In this document: positions 3,881 to 35,221 of the stretch, piece by piece | Position numbering within the stretch: the first letter of the stretch is position 1 | Layout: every line of letters begins with the position of its first letter | Virus record (IMG/VR): IMGVR_UViG_3300035661_000189 | Location: 1 to 35,479 of that record | Length of the DNA stretch: 35,479 nt | Direction: 5' to 3' (one strand) | Source: a virus | Notes under the pieces: generated by a model | What the model saw: the letters and a program-made list of their open reading frames with translations, nothing else | The model's database searches: none | What the model was told of the DNA's origin: nothing | Made by a program: the position numbers and the translations under genes

Positions 3881-4567
3881 ATGCTATTAATTGATGCAGA
3901 TATAATTGCTTACAGAGCTGCTGCATCGGCAGAAAATGAAAATATTGATATAGCAATATCTCGTACTGATTCTATGATGATGGAATTATTGTCTTTTGAC
4001 AATAAATATCTTTCATTTTTATCTGGAGAAAATAATTTCCGTAAAGTAATCAATCCAGAATATAAAGCTAATCGTAAAGATATTATTAAACCAATTTATC
4101 TTAATGATTGCAAACAATATCTTATTGATGAATTTAAATCTATAGTTACGGATGGGTATGAAGCAGACGACGCGTTAGGGTTTAATCAAACAGAAGAGAC
4201 GGTCATATGTTCCATTGATAAAGATTTAATGATGATCCCCGGAATGCACTATAATTTTGTCAAGAAAGAATATCATGAAGTGTCTGAATTAGATGGTATT
4301 AAACAATTCTACAGACAAATGCTTATTGGGGATTCAGTTGATAATATCATGGGTATTAAAGGAATTGGTAAAGTTAAAGCTGCGAAATTAATTGATCCTC
4401 TTGAAAATGAAGAGGAAATGTATAATTTAGTAGCTAATCTTTATTTTATGCCTAATGAACCAATAATAAGTAGATTTAATATAAATGCAGACTGCCTATG
4501 GATATGGCGTAAGGAAGGGGAAAGGTTCTCCCACCGATATGAGAATAACCAAAAGAACTGCTCGTAA
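3881..4567 (+). CDS. 5'-3' exonuclease (FEN/PIN-like, T7 gp6-type)
   Basis: The 228-residue protein carries the acidic residues of the 5'-nuclease (FEN) superfamily: Asp5 and Asp7 in LLIDADIIAYR, GYEADDALG (Glu94, Asp96, Asp97), CSIDKDL (Asp113, Asp115) and IGDSVDNIMGIKGIG. This last segment runs into a helix-hairpin-helix (157-168, GIKGIGKVKAAKL). Such enzymes remove RNA primers and degrade host DNA in T7-like phages. Its last 83 bases overlap endonuclease I in another frame. The start is two bases after the preceding stop. Confidence 0.88.
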   Translation: MLLIDADIIAYRAAASAENENIDIAISRTDSMMMELLSFDNKYLSFLSGENNFRKVINPEYKANRKDIIKPIYLNDCKQYLIDEFKSIVTDGYEADDALGFNQTEETVICSIDKDLMMIPGMHYNFVKKEYHEVSELDGIKQFYRQMLIGDSVDNIMGIKGIGKVKAAKLIDPLENEEEMYNLVANLYFMPNEPIISRFNINADCLWIWRKEGERFSHRYENNQKNCS

Positions 4568-32680: not shown

Positions 32681-32823
32681 AGTATCCCTCTTTAGTATTA
32701 TGTAATAGATCTATTTATTATTTAGTACAACAAATCCTGCTTGGTGCAGTCTTTGTACTCTTTACTTATCAAGTAGTATGTTCTAAGTAGTCTTTTTAAT
32801 AAGATTCAGATTCTTTGAATCTT
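32662..32823 (-). promoter_or_regulatory. Structured 5' leader of the late operon (three hairpins)
   Basis: Between the promoter and first genes three inverted repeats occur. They are 32662-32668/32672-32678 (seven pairs), 32724-32730/32753-32759 (seven pairs) with an inner 32737-32740/32746-32749 stem, and 32801-32808/32816-32823 (eight pairs). None has a T-run after it on the minus strand, so they are not intrinsic terminators. They may stabilise the mRNA, pause polymerase or control translation. Confidence 0.5.
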
Positions 32824-32847
32824 CATTTAATTACTTAATATACATAT

Positions 32848-32876
32848 ATTATAGCATATTTTTAATAAAAAGTCAA
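32848..32876 (-). promoter_or_regulatory. Sigma-70-type promoter of the late operon
   Basis: Read on the minus strand, TTGACT (32876-32871) and TATAAT (32853-32848) are 17 bases apart, one mismatch from the full consensus. It faces the late genes, with a leader of about 160 bases to the first candidate ATG. No other strong minus-strand promoter is seen upstream of 32.6 kb. Confidence 0.8.
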
Positions 32877-33116
32877 TAGATTTTCAATATATATTTACTA
32901 TTGTCTCATTTAAGAGAATTATTATGCGACCGATCTATTAAAGTTTTATATTAATCGGGAGCAAAATTTAAAATATAATCCCATTATTCAATAATTTCTA
33001 TTAGATTTTATTTTGGTGTAATGCAATATAATAGAAATTAATCAAACCCCCTTATACCCCCTATTAAATATTAGTATATGGGAATATTATTAAATGATTA
33101 ATTAATTATATGCAAA

Positions 33117-33131
33117 TGATAATCATTCTCA
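33117..33131 (+). promoter_or_regulatory. Fur-box-like operator
   Basis: TGATAATCATTCTCA matches the 7-1-7 Fur recognition sequence (TGATAAT-N-ATTATCA) at all but one position, and the surrounding 19 bases (33112-33130) match the classic Fur box at 16 of 19. The similarity is visible directly; binding is inferred. Chance matches are more likely in AT-rich DNA. Confidence 0.45.
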
Positions 33132-33147
33132 TTTAGAAATATTATTG

Positions 33148-33326
33148 TAATAACGACACACTAATATAATGACACAATATAATCCTTTACTAATACATTA
33201 TCATTCCCCTATTATTCAATGACTTAAATACTATGTCAGATATTCAACATAATACAATCCAATACAATCAATCACTTAATCTAATACTGTCATAATCTCA
33301 ACAGCAATTGTCATTATATCGACACA
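33148..33326 (+). repeat. Three degenerate GACACA repeats
   Basis: GACACA occurs at 33155-33160, 33171-33176 and 33321-33326, each flanked by TA-rich runs (for example TAATAACGACACACTAATAT). The first unit bears a loose resemblance to a T7-class promoter. They could be iterons, weak protein-binding sites or chance. Confidence 0.3.
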
Positions 33327-33365
33327 TTTAACACCTATATAATCAATAACTAATACATCATATTA

Positions 33366-33393
33366 TTGTTTACTAATGTTCTTTATGTATTAT
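33366..33393 (+). promoter_or_regulatory. Weak candidate promoter for the small early genes
   Basis: TTGTTT (33366-33371) and TATTAT (33388-33393) are spaced by 16 bases, with the -10 one mismatch from consensus. It would transcribe the 57-residue gene at 33501. Such matches are easy to find in AT-rich DNA. Confidence 0.3.
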
Positions 33394-33430
33394 TCTTTTA
33401 TTAATCAATCACTTAGTATTATTTATTGGT

Positions 33431-33443: not shown

Positions 33444-33500
33444 CTGGCATGGTTGTTGCATTCTATTTGTCCATCACTAACCCACAAAGGATTAATTATT

Positions 33501-33687: not shown

Positions 33688-33795
33688 ATGATTTATTACT
33701 TAACAATTGATAATCTGTACTATACTATTAACGCAAGTTTGGAATTAAAAAAGTCTGTCGTTGGTGAATATGTATATTGCAGTTTAATTTATTAG
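33688..33795 (+). CDS. Small hypothetical protein, 35 aa
   Basis: A 35-codon ORF behind AAGGGGG (four-base spacer to ATG). The product is MIYYLTIDNLYYTINASLEL, then KKSVVGEYVYCSLIY, rich in Tyr and beta-forming residues, with no membrane span. It follows the 57-residue gene after 13 bases and ends just before motif copy B. The family is not recognised. Confidence 0.45.
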   Translation: MIYYLTIDNLYYTINASLELKKSVVGEYVYCSLIY

Positions 33796-33815: not shown

Positions 33816-33845
33816 TTGACAAACTATAACGATTTATGATCTAAT
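33816..33845 (+). promoter_or_regulatory. Candidate sigma-70 promoter of the structured RNA
   Basis: TTGACA at 33816-33821 and TCTAAT at 33840-33845 are spaced 18 bases apart. The -35 is perfect and the -10 has two mismatches. Transcription would start near 33852, exactly where the gene-free structured stretch begins. Confidence 0.55.
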
Positions 33846-33851
33846 TCGTTA

Positions 33852-34290
33852 TGGCCTGTTTAATCAGGACTAAGATGTAAAATGATCTATCCGTAAGAGG
33901 CAAATTAGATTGCAAGGGTACGGAGTAGCAAAGGACTGGCGAACGATCATCAACCCGATAATGTATTAATGTACTTGTATTAGAATCTGATTTATGTGAT
34001 AATGCAGGCGTAATATAAATATGTTTTATCCCGTGATGGAAAGGTTACATTTAATGCACGAATAACGGAGTGAGTAATCACTAACCTATTCACCGTACCG
34101 GAAGGTTATAAGCCTAAGGAATGACGCAAGTAACCGAAGCTAATCAATTGAAAATTGCAGTAGATTGATATGGCCACAACCTAGGGTATAAAAGGAAGAC
34201 AATACCGGCGTGCTGATAATACAGTACACAAGGTGCGACTAAGGTCAATCCCCAACAACCGCGCGATGAACAGTATATTCTAATATCTAA
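33852..34290 (+). ncRNA. Candidate large structured noncoding RNA, about 440 nt
   Basis: No credible ORF exists in this stretch, yet its GC content is about 40% (143 of 360 at 33901-34260) in a far more AT-rich setting. Self-complementary arms form a nested 5' domain: ATGATC 33882-33887 with GATCAT 33945-33950, TCCGTA 33890-33895 with TACGGA 33919-33924, and GCAA 33900-33903 with TTGC 33910-33913. Further helices are CCTG/CAGG (33855/33865) and ATGTAA 33875-33880 with TTACAT 34045-34050. There is also AGTGA-GTAA-TCACT at 34069-34082 (a GNRA tetraloop), TAACCT/AGGTTA (34082-34108), and GGTAT/ATACC (34185-34206). A promoter-like element ends just upstream. The class is unknown; large phage RNAs such as GOLLD or ROOL are comparisons only. 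The 3' end is not defined. Confidence 0.55.
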
Positions 34291-34421
34291 GGAGAATAAA
34301 AACTCTATGATATATGACAATAGAATGTACTGGAAGAATGAGAAGCATATTATTAATTAGTATGTTTCTTATTGGGCAAGTTAATGCCTGTAATATTAAC
34401 AACCTTAAGAAGGAAAATAGT

Positions 34422-34592
34422 ATGAAAAAAGAATCACTGAAAGATATGTGTCTAAGAGTAGCAAAGAGGGTCAACTTTCATCAGTACCGCAGTCAGCCAC
34501 TGCCAATTGAGTACAGCAAAACAGTACGATATTCAATTGGTACGCCACAACCATCACAAATGCAACAAGCTTTTATTAACGCGATAGTGTAA
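34422..34592 (+). CDS. Small hypothetical protein, 56 aa
   Basis: I start this gene at ATG 34422 because AAGGA lies about eight bases upstream. The product, MKKESLKDMCLRVAKRVNFH then RSQPLPIEYSKTVRYSIG, is basic with one helix and an apparently flexible C-terminus. The frame is open upstream to ATG 34314, and the extra 36 residues include a hydrophobic run (ILLISMFLIGQVNAC) like a signal peptide, so a longer secreted form is possible. The family is not recognised. Confidence 0.5.
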   Translation: MKKESLKDMCLRVAKRVNFHQYRSQPLPIEYSKTVRYSIGTPQPSQMQQAFINAIV

Positions 34593-34651: not shown

Positions 34652-35179
34652 ATGATTAATGATAAACAATTCAATAGTACGATCAAAGCAATTAAAGGCA
34701 ATTCCGAGGCTTTGGCACAAGCCGTACATGAAGCGGGCGTATTTGCTATTGCACAAGCTAACCTTCATGGTAATGATGGCTTTGCACAACGCCTCATTGA
34801 GGCAATGGGTAAGAAGCATGATGTAAAGAGGGTAGAAAAATGGTTGATGTTCTTTGGGAAATTGGGTATACGTAAGGGTCTTATGGTATTCCGCAAGCGA
34901 ATTGACATTACACCTGAAAATGCTCAATCTTTCGTGGATAAGGCAGAAGCCCTGCCTTATTGGGAATTGACAAAACAAGAGCATGCGTCAACAACCGTGG
35001 ACTGGCTTAACTTGTTGCATAGTTTGGTTAAGCGCGAAGTATCTGTAAACGAAAAAATTAAAGAAGGTAAAGAGGTCACTGTCTTACATCCTGAAGTATT
35101 GGCACAAGTTAAAGAGTTGCTGAAGAAAATTGGCAGCACTGAAAAGATTGTATCCGATACAGGCATGGTAACACTGTAG
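34652..35179 (+). CDS. Conserved phage early protein of unknown function, 175 aa
   Basis: The 175-residue helical protein begins MINDKQFNSTIKAIKGN, followed by AVHEAGVFAIAQANLHGNDG, FAQRLIEAMGKKHDVKRVEK and WLMFFGKLGIRKG, then YWELTKQEHA. The pattern of H..G.FAIAQ...HGN...A.RL...MGKKHD.KR.EKWL..FGKL is a conserved phage family I know only as hypothetical, frequent in early regions of podoviruses and siphoviruses. AGAGG stands seven bases before ATG. It probably binds nucleic acid or a host protein; this is speculation. Confidence 0.75.
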   Translation: MINDKQFNSTIKAIKGNSEALAQAVHEAGVFAIAQANLHGNDGFAQRLIEAMGKKHDVKRVEKWLMFFGKLGIRKGLMVFRKRIDITPENAQSFVDKAEALPYWELTKQEHASTTVDWLNLLHSLVKREVSVNEKIKEGKEVTVLHPEVLAQVKELLKKIGSTEKIVSDTGMVTL

Positions 35180-35187
35180 TATTAATA

Positions 35188-35221
35188 CAAAGGATTAGGT
35201 AATTACTTACTTAGTCCTTTG
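35188..35221 (+). other. Strong 15-pair hairpin downstream of an early gene
   Basis: CAAAGGATTAGGTAA (35188-35202) pairs along 15 positions with TTACTTAGTCCTTTG (35207-35221), with two G-T pairs and a four-base loop. It starts nine bases after the stop of the 175-residue gene. No T-run follows on either strand, so it may be an RNase III processing site, an mRNA stabiliser or a weak terminator. Confidence 0.5.

Follow-up and report, generated by a model that had tools for sequence, protein, structure and literature searches.

We characterized a structured RNA, about 555 bases long, that lies at the head of the early genes of a podovirus and has kept its folded shape while its sequence changed. 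This conclusion rests on comparison with relatives, without transcript data. The window analyzed here is the complete viral record, 35,479 bases in length. Among relatives the RNA measures roughly 480 to 670 bases, and searches of Rfam and of the open-access literature indicate that it probably belongs to a class not yet described. With no transcript data at hand, its ends are inferred from the promoter and the last conserved helix: very likely it begins a few bases past the TTGACA-18-TCTAAT element and ends with a pseudoknot at about position 34405. The features of the locus are collected in Table 1.

Table 1. Features of the structured RNA and its surroundings; positions refer to the window unless another record is named.
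Feature	Position	Strand	Remarks
Sigma-54-type promoter, TGGCATG-GTTG-TTGCA	33445..33460	+	some 390 bases 5' of the RNA; activity inferred from sequence
Small early ORF, 57 aa	33501..33674	+	3' of the sigma-54-type site, 5' of the RNA
Small early ORF, 35 aa, MIYYLTIDNLYYTIN...FVYCSLIY	33688..33795	+	read from sequence
Sigma-70-type promoter, TTGACA (33816-33821), 18-base spacer, TCTAAT (33840-33845)	33816..33845	+	at the 5' edge of the RNA
Structured RNA	33850..34405	+	about 555 bases; bounds approximate (promoter as start, last conserved helix as end)
5' nested domain, ATGATC/GATCAT, TCCGTA/TACGGA, GCAA/TTGC	33882..33950	+	
29-base gap of the window relative to L002	34018..34019	+	missing part holds hairpin stem-ACnnnnUAACAA-stem
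Two-tier hairpin	34060..34091	+	conserved 3x3 internal loop CGG/AAC
Hairpin GCTA-AUCAAU.../...AUUGAUAUGGC, then conserved CUAGGG	34139..34186	+	folding and inspection, several homologues; no formal count
Hairpin GTGCTG/CAGTAC, preceded by conserved ACYGGY	34210..34227	+	loop UAAYA in homologues
3' domain, stems X, Y, Z and linker	34254..34332	+	
Stem X	34271-34282 / 34321-34332	+	double changes in 10 of 13 pairs
Stem Y	34283-34287 / 34309-34313	+	double changes in 5 of 5 pairs
Stem Z	34291-34294 / 34303-34306	+	double changes in 4 of 4 pairs
Conserved linker NNGRCAA	34314-34320	+	
Helix T	34341..34369	+	12 bp (up to 16 bp in the window); conserved inner AUUA...UAGU
H-type pseudoknot	34374..34400	+	directly before the ribosome-binding site of the next gene
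Pseudoknot stem 1, GGGC/GCCT	34374-34377 / 34386-34389	+	kept; changes one-sided only
Pseudoknot stem 2, GTTAAT/ATTAAC	34380-34385 / 34395-34400	+	covaries in all 7 pairs, 100% paired
Early ORF 3' of the RNA, 56 aa	34422..34592	+	Shine-Dalgarno (SD) AAGAAGGA
Early gene, family phrog_1448	34652..35179	+	unknown function; PHROG E 3.6e-17
GCUGA-pseudoknot RNA (second, unrelated RNA)	L104 2519-2600; L108 1170-1260; L109, L110, L111, L112, L113-L125		

The phage is likely a zobellvirus-like podovirus: its tail appendage protein is 45 to 48% identical to those of the Methylophilales phages MEP401/MEP402 and ctOsX528 (MW202697), the layout is similar, and MEP402 is classified under Zobellviridae; no phylogeny stands behind this comparison. 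The portal and terminase large subunit match PHROG families of ordinary podovirus kinds. Structural genes are oriented leftward; the early genes read rightward, beginning after an AT-rich, non-coding block (about 32,700 to 33,400) that lies between the divergent transcription units just upstream of the RNA. GC content is 37% across 33852-34405, peaking at 41% over 34100-34299, versus 20 to 25% in this block. Only two tRNAs (tRNA-Leu and tRNA-Trp, 2738-2901) are present, about 31 kb from the RNA in the record.

The translated frame of the 57-aa ORF upstream of the RNA has no PHROG match, and comparison with the ORF list of L003 identified a homologue of the 35-aa ORF there (4221-4324). On the 3' side, a listed ORF at 34314-34592 is likely mis-started, the probable ORF being the shorter 56-aa frame in Table 1; its homologues lie at L002 4772-4942 and L004 6048-6221, in the latter further down the operon. 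A strong hairpin (CAAAGGATTAGG...CCTTTG, 35188-35221) follows the phrog_1448 gene and has a similar sequence in L002; it likely marks either where the early unit ends or where its transcript is processed. We also observed a short element, GTCGGTCA/GACGGTCA, that repeats in the early region (33429, 33795, 34598, and 35408) and recurs in L002 to L006, L094, L096, and L098, almost always on the early sense strand and in both intergenic and coding DNA.

Relatives were located via the phrog_1448 gene, which serves as the marker of this locus, and five of them carry the RNA upstream of it: four viral contigs (L002, L003, L004, and L005) and the GenBank record MW202697 (L006). In all five, a gene-free stretch with identically ordered motifs lies directly upstream of the early ORFs, always on the sense strand, and the gene immediately 3' of the RNA varies. 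The family is narrow, with six full members in the collections searched. Two more distant phages, G001 and G020, have gene-free tracts at the corresponding place with a hairpin carrying an AACAA loop, and no 3' domain could be recognized in these tracts. A model of the 3' domain searched against 46 related phage records recovered no convincing member; a weak match in G036 (E 0.006) was not counted, since it rested on one isolated hairpin next to a coding gene. G036 does carry the marker gene, but its record breaks at the place of the RNA. BLASTN searches of GenBank phages with the RNA of the window, L004, and L005 returned nothing, the same search with the L006 RNA returned only its own record and short chance matches, and a scan of viral contigs with two RNA sequence patterns revealed no additional member. 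L127 was rejected as a member, having only one 20-base motif in common and no model match, and in genome contigs the marker gene had no relative. As a separate observation, G001 (L096 1400-1500, minus strand) contains AATCGAGCGCAAGCCATTC twice, each copy forming a hairpin with an identical loop, just before a small basic ORF.

Evidence for structure must be comparative, because the single-sequence minimum free energy of the stretch is no better than that of dinucleotide shuffles (z +0.42). The best-supported domain of the RNA is 34254-34405. Because plain MAFFT put the inner stems of the more distant members out of register, the 3' domain (34254-34410 and equivalents) was aligned by hand in six sequences on the anchors AACCRCG, NNGRCAA, AUUA...UAGU, GGGC, and AACCU, with N padding and with the insertions of L003 trimmed, and pairs were counted without R-scape. 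In this alignment 96.5% of 260 cells are paired, versus 73% when shuffled, and pairing falls to 37 to 45% when the partner strand is slid by 1 to 3 columns. Thirty of the 45 pairs changed on both sides, versus 13.6 in shuffles, a count reached by 0 of 500 shuffles. Stems X, Y, and Z and pseudoknot stem 2 differ almost wholly in sequence between members and are paired in nearly all of them.

Since the hand alignment was structure-guided, we also ran an out-of-sample test that is independent of it. A covariance model was built from the window, L002, and L003 only, aligned with plain MAFFT, and searched against 222 kb containing the other three members. The structure model placed all three of these distant members correctly (L005, E 9e-17; L006, 1e-14; L004, 4e-9), whereas the same alignment without base pairs gave L005 at E 0.0036 and L006 at 1e-7 and missed L004. 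The better performance of the structure model indicates that the base pairs carry much of the recognizable signal, as is characteristic of structured RNAs.

Covariation is also found in other parts of the RNA. Helix T is paired in 98.6% of cells, with double changes in four pairs, and the two-tier hairpin is 93.9% paired, with 8 of 11 pairs changed on both sides, its conserved internal loop sitting between two covarying stems. A hairpin with a fixed 12-base loop (ACnnnnUAACAA, ending in AACAA) occurs in L002 to L006 and in the more distant G001 and G020; it is 100% paired, with double changes, and is kept in these seven relatives while lost from the window, so that this part is either dispensable or the window copy is decaying. 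Pairing in the hairpin at 34210..34227 is retained despite differing stem sequences, although no formal count was made. For the 5' nested domain, identical nesting with differing stem sequences can be drawn by inspection in L002, L003, L005, and L006; we left it out of the formal pair count, in which its arms would have been picked by complementarity, and its support, resting on inspection only, is weaker than that for the 3' domain.

The first-pass annotation of the window, made without database searches, had raised the possibility that the early region holds a new, large structured RNA driven by a promoter of its own, and this proposal is supported by the existence of homologues and by the covariation of their helices. 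Its description of the stretch as gene-free (there is no convincing ORF, and no frame is conserved in relatives), its figure of about 40% GC in an AT-rich genome, and its placement of the TTGACA-18-TCTAAT promoter at the start all held, and the nested domain at 33882-33950 and the hairpin at 34069-34082 are both present as claimed. Three points did not hold. The argument from at least eight complementary arm pairs had no statistical weight, the folding energy being no better than that of shuffles; the RNA runs about 115 bases beyond the proposed end at 34290; and the GNRA cap assigned to the 34069-34082 hairpin is not conserved, the loops being GUAA, AGUA, GUAC, AUAC, or longer, with the CGG/AAC internal loop as the conserved feature nearby. 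The annotation had named covariation as a check, which the pair counts and the out-of-sample model passed without R-scape, and a consistent protein frame in homologues as a refutation; no such frame is kept in the relatives. Of the roles it offered, a regulatory RNA remains possible, a new class fits the data, and a packaging RNA is unsupported.

Several observations bear on whether the stretch could encode a protein. The longest stop-free runs are 46 aa in the sense and 70 aa in the antisense direction, no reading frame is conserved across the relatives, and stops are present in every sense frame. Between the window and L002 the RNA is 83.7% identical versus 76.9% for the neighboring protein gene, in which changes fall mainly at third codon positions, and indels in the RNA, of 1, 2, 5, and 29 bases among others, are not codon-like. 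In MW202697, five small hypothetical proteins (UOF80656-UOF80660) are annotated at L006 2876-3562, several of them across the RNA; these are likely spurious.

Two putative promoters precede the RNA. The site at 33445 fits the sigma-54 consensus TGGCAYR-N4-TTGCW, with GG and GC elements at -24/-12, and TGGCAYRNNNNTTGCW has a single exact match in the whole window versus 0.03 expected. An exact site of this type lies upstream of the RNA in five of the six members (the window, L002, L004, L005, and L006), with a varying spacer, and was not found upstream of the RNA in L003; in the window, two short ORFs intervene. Its activity as a promoter is inferred from sequence. To our knowledge, a conserved site of this type ahead of the RNA is unexpected in such a phage. 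Counterparts of the sigma-70-type promoter are present in L002 (TTGACA-17-TTTAAT) and L006 (TTGACA-17-TAGTAT), with a weaker one in L003 and none that is clear in L004 and L005. No terminator was called after the RNA or at helix T, and the 3' side of helix T is a U-rich strand that is itself paired, partly through compensated G-C pairs; for both reasons the RNA is read as continuous with the early mRNA.

Comparison of the window, L004, L005, and L006 with Rfam (4,227 families), at the gathering thresholds and at E values up to 10, yielded only chance matches, and the identities GOLLD, ROOL, HEARO, and group I/II intron were rejected in the absence of a covariance-model match. Cryo-EM has shown that GOLLD and ROOL, phage RNAs comparable in size, assemble into cages (PMC12286853), and the present RNA resembles them in being phage encoded, several hundred bases long, rich in helices and pseudoknots, and without a known function. 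It differs from them in lacking a covariance-model match, in lying far from tRNAs, whereas those two are typically close to tRNA genes, and in heading an early operon with a sigma-54-type site upstream. Like the phi29 pRNA, it is a structured non-coding RNA in a short-tailed phage, but it is much larger, occupies another position, accompanies another terminase, and shows no evidence of a packaging role. With the put antitermination RNAs of phage HK022 and with structured 5' leaders and riboswitches it shares its early-operon position, inferred cotranscription with genes, and a pseudoknot ahead of a ribosome-binding site; in contrast to these, it is much larger, its downstream gene is not constant, and no terminator or antiterminator switch was found in it. 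The early leader of T7 (A1-A3 to gene 0.3) is likewise an untranslated start of podovirus early transcription, whereas the present stretch is strongly selected for RNA structure; we know of no report of such selection in the T7 leader.

As to function, the reading we favor, which we think could as easily fail as hold, is that the early transcript begins with this RNA as a multidomain non-coding leader, which acts in cis on the early operon; this is inferred, and no transcript data bear on it. In this view, transcription of the rightward early unit by host RNA polymerase would begin with the RNA, making it the structured 5' leader of the message, an interpretation based on the absence of a terminator separating RNA from mRNA. 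The folded body, together with the helix and pseudoknot just before the ribosome-binding site, would then act in cis on the whole early operon, possibly through message protection, polymerase read-through, or translation gating. The RNA is unlikely to be dedicated to one particular gene, because the downstream gene differs among relatives. In favor of a leader, the RNA immediately precedes the first conserved early genes and no terminator intervenes; against it, an RNA of 480 to 670 bases with conserved loops is unusually large for a leader and would be almost equally plausible as a free RNA.

The closest rival is a free, trans-acting RNA, processed from the early transcript, that aids host takeover by binding a host protein, the ribosome, or polymerase, or by self-assembling like GOLLD and ROOL. 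We consider this less probable than not, and by inference only narrowly behind cis action. The size, the number of helices, and the conserved purine-rich loops (ACnnnnUAACAA, CGG/AAC, NNGRCAA, and UAAYA) suggest a three-dimensional body; in three members (the window, L002, and L006) a promoter stands at the 5' edge; the following gene is not constant; and the cages of similar-sized phage RNAs (PMC12286853) offer a precedent. Against it, the analysis revealed neither a terminator nor a distinct 3' end, no partner is known, and the position is always at the front of the early operon. A role in a replication origin, in which a transcript from the AT-rich divergent region primes DNA synthesis and the folded RNA positions the primer, draws on the adjoining non-coding block of 20 to 25% GC between divergent transcription units; yet the RNA itself shows no priming feature, no primer-like or hybrid-forming signal was identified, and the AT-rich block could serve as the origin without the RNA. 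We regard this role as very improbable.

We give still less credence to a packaging RNA like that of phi29. Packaging in phi29 is driven by a phage RNA of early origin, but here the terminase large subunit and portal are of ordinary podovirus families, no link to packaging genes was seen, and the RNA is far larger than pRNA. Finally, a protein gene that has decayed or escaped recognition, or AT-rich DNA that forms hairpins by chance, would agree with the ordinary single-sequence folding energy and with the small hypothetical ORFs that the annotators of MW202697 put across the region. This possibility is all but excluded by compensatory changes far above those in shuffles, by the structure-dependent detection of relatives, and by the non-codon-like indels between close relatives together with stops in all sense frames.

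Large structured RNAs are seldom found, and no function has yet been assigned to several of those already known. A compact podovirus RNA family that can be aligned over six divergent members provides a defined target for genetic and structural studies, and its placement is one from which expression at the start of infection may be inferred. The phrog_1448 gene also follows long gene-free leaders in Vibrio phage VPp1, Kantovirus C171, Variovorax phage VAC_51, and Acinetobacter phage Acibel007. The VPp1 leader contains a different, unrelated structured RNA, an H-type pseudoknot with an invariant GCUGA followed by a CGUCCACGGUnnUGCAGUGG element, which recurs in Erwinia phage Loshitsa2, Vibrio phage G1, and 13 viral-contig stretches. 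All 11 pairs of this pseudoknot covary, with 98.7% paired across 14 sequences, and the two members searched had no Rfam match.

A bolder reading, on which we remain evenly divided, is that large structured RNAs commonly reside in the untranslated stretch with which early transcripts of many short-tailed phages begin. If true, there would be at least two unrelated families of this kind absent from Rfam, the present one and the GCUGA-pseudoknot RNA, hinting at an RNA-based event early in infection that has gone unnoticed. Early leaders without genes, left empty in annotations or populated with small hypothetical ORFs, merit a systematic search for RNA. Three further leaders, in Autographiviridae and others, extend without genes for 1.3 to 1.6 kb before phrog_1448 (L105 1369-2690, L106 988-2534, and L107 1-1584); they have no match to the present RNA and contain TTGACA-type promoters, several of them in tandem, and many hairpins.
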